DNA of 41,855 bases from Candidatus Woesearchaeota archaeon (GTDB taxonomy: Archaea > Nanobdellota > Nanobdellia > Woesearchaeales > WJKL01), in assembly GCA_014729675.1 (NCBI GenBank), contig WJJM01000016.1, positions 1-41,855 on the forward strand, in the 5' to 3' direction. Shown piece after piece: positions 8,785-24,424 of the stretch. The notes under the pieces are model-generated. The model saw only the letters and a list, made by a program, of their open reading frames with translations, searched no databases and was not told the DNA's origin. The position numbers and the translations under genes are program-made. The stretch's first letter is position 1, and the number at the start of each line of letters is the position of its first letter.

Positions 8785-10365
8785 ATGGAACAAGATGCTA
8801 AAAACATTTTCAAGGGAAGATCTTTCTGCGTAGCTTCTGACTTTTCTCTTGATGAATGGCTGTATATATTTGAGAAGACAGATGAACTTAAGAAAGCTAT
8901 CAAAAACAAAGATAAAGATATCTTAGATTCTTTCAGGATAGATGATATTGATTATGGGATACAGAATGCGATCCTTGAGCCGAGCACAAGGACAGACAAT
9001 TCTTTCAGGAATGCTGCTGAGTTTCACAAGGCAAAGTTTAATCTCTTTGATCCAGGAGTTTCTTCAAGAAAGAAAAAGGAAAGCTATGCAGATACATTCA
9101 ATACCTTATCTGGATATGGCAACAGCCTGTTCATAGTGAGGAGCTCTGAAGAAGGATTGTGCAGATGGCTCGAGATAAACGGGAAGAGGTATACAGATAA
9201 CAACAATATAGAGGTTCCGCCTGCTTTTATCAATGCAGGAGACGGGCAGCATGAGCACCCTACCCAGGAGCTGCTGGATGAGTTCACATTCTGGGAATCT
9301 AATTATAAAGACCAATCAAGTATGCATATTGCACTTATAGGGGACCTTCTTCATGGGAGGACAGTACATTCAAAAGCTGATGGGTTGACTGTTTTTAATA
9401 GGGTTGAGGTCGATCTTATAGCTCCTGAAGAGATCTCTATGCCTGAGAACTATATCAAAAAGATGAAAGGCAATGGATTTAAGATCAGGAAATTTGAATC
9501 TCTGGATGAGTATTTTTCACAAGGCCATATAGCAGGAAAGCAGTACTATACAAGACCTCAGCTTGAAAGGATGGGAGAGGACATAATAAAGATACAGGAC
9601 AAGCTGAGGGAAAAGATAATATTCAGGAAAGAACATCTGGCTAAGCAGCCTGAAGGAACTAAGATGTACCATCCTCTGCCAAGACACAAAGATCACCCCA
9701 CTTTGCCTGTATTTCTTGACTCTACACCCTTAAACGGATATGAGATGCAGTCAAGGAATGGTTATTTCATAAGAATAGTCCTGTTGGGAGCTATAGCAGG
9801 AAAGCTTGGAGGGGATTTTCAGGGAGAGACTGTAGAGAAGAAAGAATATCCTGATGATTTTATAGATGAAACCACTCCTAAAAGTTCAGGGATAAAAAAT
9901 TATAAAGAGGGAATAAGGCCTATAGATAACGGGATGGTCATAGACCATGTTTGCAGAGGGGATTCTGAAAAAGATATATGGGATCATCTTGCAAAAGTTA
10001 TGAAAATCATGAATCTATATGGCAGAGGCTATATAGGCGTTGATGAGTCTCAGAAAGACAAAGGTATGTACAAGGGCCTGATATCTCTTCCAGACCACGA
10101 GCATTTTGATGAGAAACAGATAAAGAAATTAGGAGCAGTTGTTCCGGGATGCACATTAAATTTTATAGAGGATGAGCACATCTCAAGAAAACTAAGATTA
10201 AGGATGCCCAGAAGGATATACGGGTTTGAAGAGCCTGACTGCAGCAATGAAAGGTGTATAACGCATGAAGAACCTGTTCCAAAAAAGTTCATAAGGGCAA
10301 AAGACGGAAAATACAGCTGCCTTTATTGCGAGCATCCTCAGACATTCAAGGAGATATGGAGATAA
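8785..10365 (+). CDS. pyrBI: aspartate carbamoyltransferase, fused catalytic (PyrB) and regulatory (PyrI) chains
   Basis: Makes N-carbamoyl-aspartate from carbamoyl phosphate and aspartate, the committed step of pyrimidine synthesis. Residues 1 to about 345 are PyrB: carbamoyl-phosphate loop PSTRTDNSF (STRT at 67-70), the Lys-containing KKKESYADT loop, IVRSSEEG, HPTQELLD, LHGRTVHS, YYTRPQLERMG and HPLPR are all present, so the active site looks complete. Residues about 370-526 are PyrI: the allosteric domain (RPIDNGMVIDHV) and a zinc site Cx4C-x20-CxxC (CSNERC...CLYC). The two are normally separate genes in archaea and enterics; a fusion is known in Thermotoga. No other pyr gene is nearby. 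It has a leaderless promoter. Confidence 0.95.
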   Translation: MEQDAKNIFKGRSFCVASDFSLDEWLYIFEKTDELKKAIKNKDKDILDSFRIDDIDYGIQNAILEPSTRTDNSFRNAAEFHKAKFNLFDPGVSSRKKKESYADTFNTLSGYGNSLFIVRSSEEGLCRWLEINGKRYTDNNNIEVPPAFINAGDGQHEHPTQELLDEFTFWESNYKDQSSMHIALIGDLLHGRTVHSKADGLTVFNRVEVDLIAPEEISMPENYIKKMKGNGFKIRKFESLDEYFSQGHIAGKQYYTRPQLERMGEDIIKIQDKLREKIIFRKEHLAKQPEGTKMYHPLPRHKDHPTLPVFLDSTPLNGYEMQSRNGYFIRIVLLGAIAGKLGGDFQGETVEKKEYPDDFIDETTPKSSGIKNYKEGIRPIDNGMVIDHVCRGDSEKDIWDHLAKVMKIMNLYGRGYIGVDESQKDKGMYKGLISLPDHEHFDEKQIKKLGAVVPGCTLNFIEDEHISRKLRLRMPRRIYGFEEPDCSNERCITHEEPVPKKFIRAKDGKYSCLYCEHPQTFKEIWR

Positions 10366-10368
10366 GGA

Positions 10369-11682
10369 TCAGTTCATATACTGAAGACCGTGGTCTTTGA
10401 CAAACTTTGCTCCGTCTTTGCTGAAGTATCTTTTTAGTTTTCTTATTGATATGTTTTCTATCTGTCTTATGTTTTCTCTGGGCCATCCTGTCTTCTCTTC
10501 TATCTCTTCCAGAGTGTACCCATTGCTTCCAAATCTCATCCTGATGAATTTTCTCTCCTTCTTGTTCAGCTCCTTGTCAAGTATCTTTTTAAATTCTCTG
10601 CTGAAATCCTCTTTCTCAACATCCTTTTGAGTGTCTTTTTCGCATTCTAATGTATCTTTTAGGTAAAACTCATCTGATATCGGAGCATCAAGATAGACAT
10701 TTTTCTTGTTCAGGCTTTCCATATACATGACATCTCTTATGCTCATATCCATACCTTCTGCTACATCATAATCATTGGCATGATAGTTGTTCTTGTCAAA
10801 GAAATCTTTCTTAAACTCTTTTATGCTCCTTAACATAGAGTCTGCAGAAGAGCTCCTTTTTTCATTAAACTTTCTTCCTATTTCCCTTAACATAATGTAC
10901 ATTGCAGAACTGTATACAAAGCTCTGGAAAGAAGCATTTCTTTTGAAGTCGTGCTTTTTTATAGCTTTTACAAGCCCGTAATTTCCTTCTGAGATCATAT
11001 CCATATCTCTGTTTAGCCTGTATTTTTTTGCTATTGCAGGAACCATACGAATTGTGCTTTTTACAAGCTTTTCTTCTTTTTCTCTGCACTTTTCATAGTG
11101 GTGTTCAAAAAGCTCTTTGTTTGTTTCAAGCTGAAGATAGTAATCTTTGAAGCGTTCAATATATCCTCTTACAGGCCTTAGTTCCATCATCAGGCTGGTT
11201 ATCTTTTCTTTGTTTTTCTGGATTTCTTCTTTCTCAAGAATTTTTTTTATCTTACTGATATTCTTTTCAGCTTTTTTTCTTGCATCTTTTTTGTCCAAAG
11301 AGAAAACATGAAACTTTGATCTTAATCTTTTTTTACTGTCAGCAGACAAAAGTATCTTTTTCAGGATATCCTTATTGCTGAAAAGCAGGGCAGCATATCC
11401 ATTATAATGGTGCTCCATCTCTTTTAGCAGTTTTTGCTGTATATCTTTGGGAACCAAAGCAGCGTGATTGCACATATCTTTATAATATGCATCTACCTCA
11501 TCATACAGCACAGAATAGTCCGGCCTTTCCAGGCATACATCAAGTGTCTTAAGTGTCTTTATAACTTTATATATCTTTTTTTCAGATACTGAGTTATCTT
11601 TTAGGAACTTGTTCAGTTCTATGTTTGATATTTTTTTCTTATCCTTAAAGCATTCTTTAAGGATATCTTCAAGCTTATCCAT
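10369..11682 (-). CDS. sigma-70 family RNA polymerase sigma factor
   Basis: 437 residues with the domain order of a primary-type bacterial sigma factor. Residues 1-55 resemble sigma 1.1. Residues 61-113 match 1.2 (DEVDAYYKDM, ALVPKDIQQKL). A helical non-conserved region (114-195) follows. Residues 196-276 match 2.1-2.4 (EEKLVKSTIRMVPAIAKKYR, ISEGNYGLVKAIKKHDF). Residues about 282-345 match 3 (YDVAEGMDMSIRDVMYM, YLDAPISDE). Residues 367-425 match 4 (LNKKERKFIRMRFG, YTLEEIEEKTGWPRENIRQI). The Trp pair that melts bacterial -10 DNA is missing (SSAMYIM at that position). Archaea normally use TBP/TFB; sigma-like genes have been reported in DPANN single-cell genomes. It has a leaderless TATA promoter and converges with pyrBI. 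Confidence 0.93.
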   Translation of the reverse strand: MDKLEDILKECFKDKKKISNIELNKFLKDNSVSEKKIYKVIKTLKTLDVCLERPDYSVLYDEVDAYYKDMCNHAALVPKDIQQKLLKEMEHHYNGYAALLFSNKDILKKILLSADSKKRLRSKFHVFSLDKKDARKKAEKNISKIKKILEKEEIQKNKEKITSLMMELRPVRGYIERFKDYYLQLETNKELFEHHYEKCREKEEKLVKSTIRMVPAIAKKYRLNRDMDMISEGNYGLVKAIKKHDFKRNASFQSFVYSSAMYIMLREIGRKFNEKRSSSADSMLRSIKEFKKDFFDKNNYHANDYDVAEGMDMSIRDVMYMESLNKKNVYLDAPISDEFYLKDTLECEKDTQKDVEKEDFSREFKKILDKELNKKERKFIRMRFGSNGYTLEEIEEKTGWPRENIRQIENISIRKLKRYFSKDGAKFVKDHGLQYMN

Positions 11683-11700
11683 GGATTATGATAACTGCAT

Positions 11701-11712
11701 TTATTTTATAAG
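11701..11712 (-). promoter_or_regulatory. TATA box of the sigma-like gene
   Basis: On the minus strand CTTATAAAATAA lies 19-30 nt before the ATG at 11682. The gene for a bacterial-type sigma thus has an ordinary archaeal promoter. Confidence 0.5.
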
Positions 11713-11738: not shown

Positions 11739-11747
11739 CTTTAAATA
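11739..11747 (+). promoter_or_regulatory. TATA box of the MTase-kinase gene
   Basis: CTTTAAATA lies 23-31 nt before the ATG at 11770; leaderless. It is divergent from the sigma-like gene, whose own TATA box is 30 nt away. Confidence 0.55.
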
Positions 11748-11769: not shown

Positions 11770-12945
11770 ATGGAGATATATGAGCCAAGAGAAGATACTT
11801 TCCTGATATTAAAGCAGATAGAACATTTTGCTTCTGGAAATGTTCTTGATATGGGGACAGGTTCAGGAGTTTTGGCTATAGAGGCTGCTCAGACAGCAGA
11901 TAATGTTATAGGGGTAGATATAAACAAGGATGCTGTTGAGTTTGCGTCTGAGCAGGCAAAAGATTATCCTAATGTCCAGTTTTTCCATTCTGACCTTTTT
12001 TCTTATTTTAAGAAGAACCCTATGAAGTTTGACCTTATAATCTTTAATCCACCATATCTTCCTGAAGATAAAAAAGAGCCAAAGGAAAGCGCACTGGCTA
12101 CGACAGGAGGAAAGAAAGGACACGAAGTTCTTGAAAGATTTTTTTCTGAAGTTTCTGAATATCTTATGCCTTACGGAAGGATACTTGTCATTTTCAGCTC
12201 TTTAACAGGAAAAGATAAGACCCATGAGATATTGGAAGAGTATGCTTTTGATTACCAGAAGCTTGCTGAGAAAGAAGAGTTTATGGAGACATTGTTTGTC
12301 TATATAATCGAGAAGAGCGATCTTTTGAGAGCAGTGGAATGGAAAGGCATAAAGAATGTAAAAAAGATAGCAAAAGGCCACAGAGGATTTATCTTTATAG
12401 GGAATCTTGAAGGAAAGAAAGTTGTCGTGAAAAAGCAGCGTGATGACAAGCCTGTTACAGGAAGGATAGTAAATGAAGCAAGATGGCTGAAAGTTTTGAA
12501 CAGGAAAGGCATAGGCCCAAAGTTTTTGTTTTTAGATGTGAAGAACAATTATTTTTGCTATGAGTATGTTGAGGGAGAATTTATACCTTCATTTTTAGAG
12601 AAAGCTCCAAAAGATGAGATAAAGAAAGTTTTGAAGGATGTGTTTGAGCAGTGCTTTAAGATGGATATGATGGGCATAGACAAGGAAGAGATGCACAATC
12701 CGTATAAGCATGTATTGGTCGAGGATGGGAAAGCTGTCCTGCTGGATTTTGAAAGGGTGCATTCTACTGAGAAACCGAAGAATGTTACCCAGTTTATGCA
12801 GTATGTTGGAAATAAAAGGAATACAAAGATACTGAAAGAGAAAGGCATAAAGGTTGATATGCGTAAATGGAGAGCTGCTGCAAGAAGATACAAGAAAGAA
12901 GAGAACAAAGAGAACTTTAAGAAAATCTTAAGTCTTTTGAGTTAG
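11770..12945 (+). CDS. HemK2/Mtq2-type glutamine methyltransferase fused to a predicted Ser/Thr kinase
   Basis: Two-domain protein. Residues 1 to about 180 are a class I SAM methyltransferase of the release-factor type: EPREDTFLIL at the start, SAM loop LDMGTGSG, acidic VIGVDIN, and the substrate motif NPPY near residue 93. This family methylates the GGQ glutamine of aRF1. Residues about 190-391 match the archaeal predicted kinase family COG2112: KGHRGFIF glycine-rich-like strand, KKVVVKKQR (the ATP-binding Lys), NEARWLKVLN, a KHVLVEDGKAVLLDFERV segment with the metal-binding Asp. The canonical HxD is replaced by an HNPYKH-like loop. These are often separate genes; the kinase substrate is unknown. 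ATG 11770 fits the leaderless promoter. Confidence 0.88.
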   Translation: MEIYEPREDTFLILKQIEHFASGNVLDMGTGSGVLAIEAAQTADNVIGVDINKDAVEFASEQAKDYPNVQFFHSDLFSYFKKNPMKFDLIIFNPPYLPEDKKEPKESALATTGGKKGHEVLERFFSEVSEYLMPYGRILVIFSSLTGKDKTHEILEEYAFDYQKLAEKEEFMETLFVYIIEKSDLLRAVEWKGIKNVKKIAKGHRGFIFIGNLEGKKVVVKKQRDDKPVTGRIVNEARWLKVLNRKGIGPKFLFLDVKNNYFCYEYVEGEFIPSFLEKAPKDEIKKVLKDVFEQCFKMDMMGIDKEEMHNPYKHVLVEDGKAVLLDFERVHSTEKPKNVTQFMQYVGNKRNTKILKEKGIKVDMRKWRAAARRYKKEENKENFKKILSLLS

Positions 12946-22501: not shown

Positions 22502-22534
22502 AGTTTTATTTTAGCTTAAAATTCTTTGAGAAGA

Positions 22535-24424
22535 ATGGCAGATATAATTAAAGAGATTTTGAAGGAGATGCCTGCTGGCAAGATTTCAGATGCCAGCTTT
22601 GAAGGCGCAAATATAGTGCTGTATACAAAAGATGCAGACTTTTTCTTAGACAACAGAGGGATAATCAAGGAAGCTGTTGACAAGTTCAAGAAAAGGATAG
22701 AGCTCAGGCCTGATCCTGATATAACTATGGAGCCTGAAAAGGCTGAAAAAGAGATAAAAAAGCTGGTGGGAAAAGATGCTGGCATAGGAAATGTTAATTT
22801 CGATCCTCAGAGAAGTATGGTTATAATAGAAGCTGAAAAGCCAGGTCTGGCTATAGGAAAACAAGGAGAGCTCCTGAGGGAGATAAGGGCTAAAACACAC
22901 TGGGTTCCTTTGGTTAGAAGAACTCCAGCTATAAAAAGCAAGATAATAGACGAGATAAGGGCAGTACTATACAAAGAGTCAGATTACAGGAGGAAATTTC
23001 TTGACAAGACCGGACATAGGGTATATGACGGCTGGCTCAGAGAGAAGAAAGAAGAATGGATAAGGATGAGCTTCTTAGGAGGAGCAAGAGAAGTCGGAAG
23101 GTCATGCTTGTTTTTGCAGACCCCTGAATCAAGGGTTATGCTTGACTGCGGAGTAAATGTAGCTTCATGGGACAATGCATACCCTTATCTTGAGGTTCCT
23201 GAATTCAATATAAAGCAGCTGGACGCTGTTATAATAACCCATTCCCATCTTGACCATATCGGATTTGTACCATATCTTTTCAAGTTTGGCTATAAGGGGC
23301 CTGTATATATGACTGCACCTACAAGGGATGTAGGTTCTTTGCTTTTGCTGGATTATATCAAGATAATGAGAGCAGAGGGAAAAGAGCCGATATTTGAGAC
23401 AGAAGATGTAAAAGAGATGGTAAAGCACACTATCACTCTGGATTATGAGGAAGTTACAGATATCACTCCTGATGTAAGGATAACGATGTACAATTCAGGG
23501 CACATACTTGGCTCATCTGAAGTTCATATGCACGTAGGAAATGGCCTTCATAATATAGTCTATACAGGAGATATGAAATACGGAAGGACTGCATTGCTTG
23601 AAGCTGCAAATACAAGATTCCCAAGAGTTGAGACGTTGATAATGGAGGCTACATACGGAGGAAAAGATAATGTGCTTCCTCCTCAGAGAGAAGCTGATGA
23701 TAAGCTTAAAAATGTGATAAAAGAGACAGTAGAGAGGGGAGGGAAGATACTGATGCCTACTCTTGGATCAGGAAGAGCACAGGAAGTTCTGGTGATGATA
23801 GAATCAATGGTAAGGAACAAGGAGCTTAAAGAGATTCCAGTCTACATAGACGGAATGGTATGGGACATTACAGCTATACACACTGCTTATCCTGAATTTC
23901 TTAATTCCACTGTAAGAAAACAGATATTCCACAAGGACCAAAATCCTTTTTTAAGCCCTATATTCAAAAGGGTTGGAAGCAAGAAAGAGAGAAAGCAGCT
24001 TATAGAAGAAAAAGGGCCATGTATAATATTGGCAACTTCAGGTATGCTTGTAGGAGGGCCTTCTGTAGAGTATCTTAAGAATCTGGCTGACAATCCTAAA
24101 AATACACTTATCTTTACATGCTATCAGGGAGAAGGATCGCTTGGGCAGAGGATACAGAGAGGACAGAAAGAGCTGATATTCCAGGAAGGCGGAAAGCAGG
24201 AGATGACTGAGCTTAAGATGGAAGTGCACAAGCTTGAGATTACAGCGCATTCAGACAGGAGACAGCTGACAAATTTTGTCTACAGATGCAGCCCAAAGCC
24301 GAAGAAGGTCATAGTGAATCACGGAGAGAACTCAAGATGTCTGGACCTTGCTTCTTCACTTCATAAGATGAATCGTATAGAGACAAATGCTCCAAGAGAC
24401 CTGGACAGCATAAGGTTGAAGTAG
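22535..24424 (+). CDS. aCPSF1/FttA, KH-MBL-beta-CASP transcription termination RNase
   Basis: The archaeal homolog of CPSF73 (aCPSF1, also named FttA), which cleaves nascent RNA at U-rich sites and terminates transcription. The 629-residue chain has N-terminal KH-type domains (ending near GLAIGKQGELLREIRAKTHW), the metallo-beta-lactamase core with THSHLDHIG (near 235-241), GHILGSSEVH, VYTGD, EATYGG, and the beta-CASP part with CYQGEGSLGQR, EITAHSDRR and VNHGE. All metal ligands look present. The ATG at 22535 is preferred over an upstream TTG at 22526. U-tract terminators occur after several genes here, consistent with its role. Confidence 0.96.
   Translation: MADIIKEILKEMPAGKISDASFEGANIVLYTKDADFFLDNRGIIKEAVDKFKKRIELRPDPDITMEPEKAEKEIKKLVGKDAGIGNVNFDPQRSMVIIEAEKPGLAIGKQGELLREIRAKTHWVPLVRRTPAIKSKIIDEIRAVLYKESDYRRKFLDKTGHRVYDGWLREKKEEWIRMSFLGGAREVGRSCLFLQTPESRVMLDCGVNVASWDNAYPYLEVPEFNIKQLDAVIITHSHLDHIGFVPYLFKFGYKGPVYMTAPTRDVGSLLLLDYIKIMRAEGKEPIFETEDVKEMVKHTITLDYEEVTDITPDVRITMYNSGHILGSSEVHMHVGNGLHNIVYTGDMKYGRTALLEAANTRFPRVETLIMEATYGGKDNVLPPQREADDKLKNVIKETVERGGKILMPTLGSGRAQEVLVMIESMVRNKELKEIPVYIDGMVWDITAIHTAYPEFLNSTVRKQIFHKDQNPFLSPIFKRVGSKKERKQLIEEKGPCIILATSGMLVGGPSVEYLKNLADNPKNTLIFTCYQGEGSLGQRIQRGQKELIFQEGGKQEMTELKMEVHKLEITAHSDRRQLTNFVYRCSPKPKKVIVNHGENSRCLDLASSLHKMNRIETNAPRDLDSIRLK

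Follow-up and report, generated by a model that had tools for sequence, protein, structure and literature searches.

Transcription start divides the domains of life, with sigma factors serving bacteria and TBP/TFB serving archaea. The first description of archaeal sigma factors is credited to Rinke et al. (cited in PMC6126073), and Castelle et al. 2021 (PMC8204110) describe sigma-70 (fam00359) as prevalent in Woesearchaeota; both sources agree with the original prediction for the present locus, that sigma-like genes had already been reported in DPANN genomes. The Woesearchaeota/DPANN proteins share their setting with the one analysed here: a small archaeal genome with TFB and an archaeal RNA polymerase (RNAP), and no known control. 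Our window is a stretch of 41,855 nucleotides from Candidatus Woesearchaeota archaeon (contig WJJM01000016.1). It encodes a sigma-70 family protein, P0001, whose gene and regions are as follows.

10369 to 11682, minus strand: P0001, sigma-70 family protein of 437 aa in an unbroken 437-codon frame (Pfam, NCBIfam, PHROGs, PDB sequence and fold matches)
11536 to 11646, minus strand: region 1.1-like segment, residues 13-49 (PF03979, E 0.012, weak)
10876 to 11067, minus strand: sigma region 2, residues 206-269 (PF04542, E 1.1e-4)
10669 to 10833, minus strand: sigma region 3, residues 284-338 (PF04539, E 1.1e-3, just under the cut-off)
10432 to 10572, minus strand: sigma region 4, residues 371-417 (PF04545, E 1.9e-9, over the cut-off)

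By curated cut-offs P0001 is a member of the sigma-70 superfamily, since both the NCBIfam superfamily model TIGR02937 (67.4 bits against a cut-off of 42.9) and PF04545 were exceeded. PF04542 scored 22.3 against a cut-off of 24 in the protein scan and 26, above it, in the genome scan. The profile search, which had been put forward as a check on the original prediction, thus recovered regions 4 and 2 at the E-values listed. The further claim that the sigma regions occur in order stands for regions 2, 3 and 4 by Pfam; region 1.1 is weak and region 1.2 (PF00140) has no profile match, both being supported indirectly by collinearity with another sigma protein of the genome, P0003, which matches region 1.2 at 1.2e-5 and region 1.1 weakly (0.0015), and whose matching segment aligns with the region 1.1-like segment of P0001. 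Closeness to bacterial primary sigma factors was not upheld. Identity to E. coli RpoD is 29% in regions 2-4 and scores fall far below the RpoD cut-offs; the RpoD_Cterm model (TIGR02393) matches with an E-value of 1.2e-26, yet at 93.7 bits against a cut-off of 354, and P0001 is therefore not an RpoD.

Searched against PDB sequences, P0001 matched sigma factors exclusively (best E 8.5e-19), and it also matched the PHROGs family 'RNA polymerase sigma factor' (E 4.8e-27). An AlphaFold2 model built from 38 archaeal sigma sequences reached a mean pLDDT of 81 and a pTM of 0.52, with a confident sigma core fold. All 50 PDB fold matches listed for this model were sigma-70-type chains from bacterial transcription complexes, with alignments that span the protein. 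TM-scores against holoenzyme sigma-70 chains reached only about 0.3, since the domains are placed differently relative to one another; the fold assignment is based on Foldseek E-values and probabilities, not on TM-scores.

The neighbourhood of the gene comprises the following features.

11704 to 11711, minus strand: putative TATA box (TTATAAAA), 29 nt upstream of the P0001 start codon (sequence)
11740 to 11747, plus strand: putative TATA box (TTTAAATA) of the divergent methyltransferase gene (sequence)
11770 to 12945, plus strand: neighbouring methyltransferase carrying an MTS domain (57 of 60 relatives have an orthologue)
8785 to 10365, plus strand: neighbouring PyrB-PyrI fusion, aspartate carbamoyltransferase catalytic and regulatory chains (Pfam)
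22526 to 24424, plus strand: FttA with its own KH domain (PF17214, 4.4e-17, and beta-CASP domain)

FttA, the archaeal termination factor, lies 11 kb from P0001 on the same contig, and the single RNAP in the assembly is archaeal, with split Rpo1'/Rpo1'' and Rpo2'/Rpo2''. These markers identify the contig as archaeal and answer the check by marker genes that had been proposed. Furthermore, a TATA element 26-33 nt before the start codon was observed 28 times among 60 intergenic upstream stretches from four contigs of this genome, against 3.7 expected from shuffles (maximum 11 among 200); the P0001 and P0002 genes each possess such an element, in keeping with the predicted archaeal promoters around and ahead of the P0001 gene. 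The GC content of the P0001 gene (0.342) fits that of neighbouring coding sequences (0.362, sd 0.028). Mis-binned bacterial sequence or a chimeric contig would be compatible with an assembly of 72 contigs and 4.8% estimated contamination, but was rejected as extremely improbable in view of FttA, the sole archaeal RNAP, a TFB gene 1.3 kb from the other two sigma genes, the TATA grammar before sigma genes, and three relatives (G013, G022 and G042) whose sigma genes share a contig with archaeal Rpo1'. With its Pfam, TIGR02937 and PDB matches, P0001 is virtually certain to be a sigma-70 homologue encoded in an archaeon, as first proposed, and it is near full-length.

P0001 was aligned with E. coli RpoD, 80 more bacterial and 45 archaeal sigma proteins, and the positions that contact the -35 element, the -10 element and the RNAP clamp were assigned from established knowledge of sigma-70 (numbering of E. 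coli RpoD). Two features emerged from this alignment.

10906 to 10911, minus strand: Ser258-Ser259, replacing the W433-W434 promoter-melting dyad
10456 to 10479, minus strand: -35 recognition helix, R402-E403-x-x-R406-Q407-x-E409, equivalent to RpoD R584/E585/R588/Q589/E591

The absence of the Trp pair had been noted in the original prediction and is confirmed here, with Ser at both W433 and W434; the other -10 positions are likewise replaced, Q437 by Tyr and T440 by Leu. Because the residues that open DNA are lost and those that read the promoter are kept, P0001 is likelier to be a regulator than a bacterial-type initiation factor. Across the 45 archaeal sigma proteins, the R-E-R triad is present in 40 and the Trp dyad in just 26. 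Mean conservation in the same proteins, calculated at positions where conservation in the bacterial set is 95% or higher, was 0.875 for -35 contacts, 0.81 for -10 contacts, 0.78 for clamp-facing positions and 0.685 for the remainder, figures that are descriptive only because the bacterial set was picked by similarity to P0003.

The genome encodes three sigma-family proteins (P0001, P0002 and P0003) together with a fusion of sigma region 4 and alpha-CTD, P0004. P0003 is a canonical sigma of 463 aa with Pfam regions 1.2, 2 and 4 and an intact Trp dyad and R-E-R triad; adjoining it on contig C20 is P0002, a second divergent sigma of 375 aa. A TATA element lies ahead of this pair (L028:10240-12780), which is the one found 1.3 kb from the TFB gene. 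Downstream (L028:8281-10175, minus strand) are lipoprotein-like and long coiled-coil genes, possibly in one operon with the sigma genes; an anti-sigma factor downstream of P0003 was considered and rejected, these proteins having no anti-sigma match. Adjacent sigma gene pairs recur in many genomes of the group (L084, L085, L086, L089, L105 and L028 among them), and in several of these pairs one member lacks the Trp dyad.

P0001 and P0003 are collinear, with 23% identity over 447 columns (E 2e-19). Their N-terminal halves, a part poorly conserved among sigma factors generally, match with a z of 11.4, a score that none of 500 shuffles reached; the runner-up among the sigmas compared stands at 5.2. 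The collinearity and the best N-terminal match make duplication of a P0003-like gene, followed by divergence, the most probable origin of P0001. No close relative of P0001 was found in named genomes or the other collections searched, and a viral origin was set aside when the viral search gave no relative.

In two genomes of the same family, G001 (87% complete) and G003 (78% complete), no sigma gene lies between PyrBI and the methyltransferase, pyr genes filling the interval, which weakens the case for strong vertical synteny of the locus. Two genomes of other families (G044 and G051) do have a sigma gene no more than 5 kb from this methyltransferase, which with our own makes three families (P of roughly 0.003, calculated post hoc). 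The gene may have been placed there ancestrally or inserted independently. The PyrB-PyrI fusion beside P0001 (526 aa) has merely 27% identity to its counterpart in same-family genomes.

The absence of P0001 from these two incomplete genomes would also suit a decaying duplicate without function whose frame is still open, as would its loss of conserved -10 residues and its long branch (3.5 changes per column). Conversely, the frame is unbroken over all 437 codons and has its own TATA promoter, the -35 helix residues are wholly kept while others changed, and the sigma core fold is confident. We consider decay unlikely.

Of the 288 genomes of the order, 89 carry relatives of P0003; among the 169 with completeness of 90% or more and contamination of 5% or less, 64 do. 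This persistence indicates that the sigma class is retained in the group and not transient. A tree built from 45 archaeal and 32 bacterial sigma proteins does not unite the archaeal sequences in one clade, which suggests several transfers: at least three changes are forced (shuffles about 25), and the sigmas of G015 and G092 group with Planctomycetes. One ancient transfer for all archaeal sigmas is thus unsupported. Long branches leave P0001 and P0002 without tree placement. In one family (G171, G285 and G151; L084, L085 and L109) sigma genes are situated between a membrane/helix-turn-helix gene and the IleRS gene, a looser version of the arrangement being present in G189 (L096). In some archaeal sigmas very long extensions go unmatched (1109, 1741 and 984 aa in L074, L081 and L090).

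We then turn to the polymerase. The clamp coiled-coil is present in archaeal RNAP, and the Rpo1' clamp helices are near-identical between 16 sigma-bearing and 14 sigma-less relatives. In all 30 of these Rpo1' sequences the equivalents of E. coli beta-prime R275, E295 and A302, the sigma-binding positions, are I, L and H. The flap-tip helix, which in bacteria holds sigma region 4, is absent from all 30 Rpo2' sequences. As contact residues and flap tip are missing, and identically so with or without sigma, we conclude that the archaeal RNAP has not been rebuilt for sigma; a coevolved RNAP in sigma-bearing genomes was rejected, and docking of P0001 on RNAP is unsupported by coevolution. On the sigma side, the Trp dyad, four clamp-face residues and the R-E-R triad are all kept in 18 of the 45 archaeal sigmas, and the clamp-face residues are altered in all three sigmas of our genome (D-S-E-N, D-Q-F-N and D-G-E-R).

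This mismatch bears on a reading in which the sigma proteins target the RNAP of a bacterial partner or host rather than the archaeon's own. Many archaeal sigmas keep clamp-face residues that fit bacterial beta-prime and find no partners in the archaeal clamp, and members of the group are thought to be symbionts (PMC8204110). However, the altered clamp faces of all three resident sigmas do not fit this, P0001 has no secretion signal by eye, a delivery system was not found, and there is no known bacterial host or export in this case. Such an outward role is very unlikely.

Bacterial-type promoters were sought as the consensus TTGACA-N16-18-TATAAT, to which the scan was limited. With totals summed by hand, 26 sigma-bearing genomes gave 39 hits against 31 for the backwards control, which is no enrichment; 34 sigma-less genomes gave 62 against 37, and our own genome 3 in each direction. 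Hits to a scrambled pattern were few as well, and upstream of genes in the contigs of our genome that were examined no sigma-type promoter was present. The scan is able to detect sigma-dependent DNA, since a phage-like contig (G024:C5, 73 kb; L390 and L391) yielded 8 such promoters within some 60 kb. This contig comes from the bin of an archaeal relative; its GC is 25-29%, its ORFs are phage-like by eye, and it is probably a mis-binned bacterial phage. The search found no target element or regulon for P0001. Regulation of a small gene set, as first suggested, is possible; with consensus sigma-70 promoters not in excess, it is without sequence support.

The same scan weighs against a working alternative initiation system, in which P0003 with P0001, P0002 and P0004 would bind the archaeal RNAP at its clamp helices and direct it to bacterial -35/-10 promoters of a small gene set. 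The completeness of P0003 (region 1.2, dyad and triad), the 18 archaeal sigmas that keep dyad, clamp-face residues and triad together, the further bacterial promoter-reading domain that P0004 would supply, and the clamp coiled-coil of archaeal RNAP all favour such a system. Yet consensus promoters are neither in excess nor found upstream of the genes examined, the RNAP has neither the contact residues nor the flap tip, and P0001 has no dyad. Overall we judge it quite unlikely.

Our preferred reading is that P0001 is a resident, ameliorated sigma-70 protein of bacterial origin, duplicated in the lineage from the canonical P0003, and now acting as a sequence-specific regulator of TBP/TFB-driven transcription. 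To judge from its kept contact residues, the helix-turn-helix of region 4 would read a -35-like element. Region 2 and the N-terminal half may dock on the clamp coiled-coil of archaeal RNAP, or may be structural. P0001 would be unlikely to melt promoters: because its residues for -10 recognition and melting are gone, DNA opening would be left to the TBP/TFB/archaeal RNAP machinery. The gene itself would be transcribed by the archaeal machinery from its TATA promoter, an element recognised by sequence. We advance this resident region-4 DNA-binding regulator tentatively, the whole mechanism, drawn from sequence, standing a little short of an even chance.

The P0004 protein (188 aa; contig C11, L072:8259-8825, plus strand) matches both alpha-CTD (PF03118, E 7.9e-11) and region 4 (PF04545, E 7.5e-9), and its predicted structure matches solved structures of sigma domain 4 and alpha-CTD. 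Five genomes from five families of the order carry this fusion (our own, L098, L111, L112 and L114), as do IMG/VR viral contigs (L310-L312 and L336). Given its presence in four other families and on viral contigs, it was probably acquired rather than invented in archaea, and we dropped the idea of an archaeal invention. That these archaea practise a hybrid transcription, in which a canonical sigma, a -10-blind paralogue and a sigma4-alpha-CTD adaptor would work on an unmodified archaeal RNAP through the clamp coiled-coil alone, beside TBP/TFB, seems rather unlikely.

A lineage that has long kept, duplicated and edited sigma factors with a purely archaeal RNAP offers a direct test of sigma on or beside an archaeal polymerase, and the combination of a kept -35 helix with a lost -10 dyad makes a concrete, testable prediction. 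In the literature searched, which excludes most subscription texts, we did not find the diverged paralogue, the set of three sigmas with an alpha-CTD fusion, or the mismatch with the polymerase.

Compared with known systems, P0001 resembles the bacterial group 1/2 sigmas (RpoD/SigA/RpoS) in its order of regions, its region 4.2 -35 helix and its 29% identity to E. coli RpoD. It differs from them in having no region 1.2 match and replaced -10 residues, and in its genome having no bacterial core enzyme; among the marks of a primary sigma, R584/E585/R588 are present, whereas the RpoD score and W433/W434/Q437/T440 are not. MzaA, the sigma-like protein of the MZA anti-phage system, shares the sigma core with P0001 (PADLOC E 1.7e-15), which matches just positions 426-660 of the 683 in the MzaA model; the first 425 or so are unmatched, and the whole-model test fails. 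The viral sigma4-alpha-CTD fusions have the architecture of P0004, on viral contigs not linked to P0001. Sigma-70 in archaea is itself published. Relative to the described Woesearchaeota/DPANN proteins, P0001 stands apart by its lost Trp dyad and its most probable origin as a diverged paralogue, and its genome holds two more sigmas and a sigma4-alpha-CTD fusion; what is new here is that paralogue, this set of proteins in one genome and its mismatch with the polymerase, the residue- and interface-level analysis being the present study's addition to the accessible part of Castelle et al. 2021 (PMC8204110).
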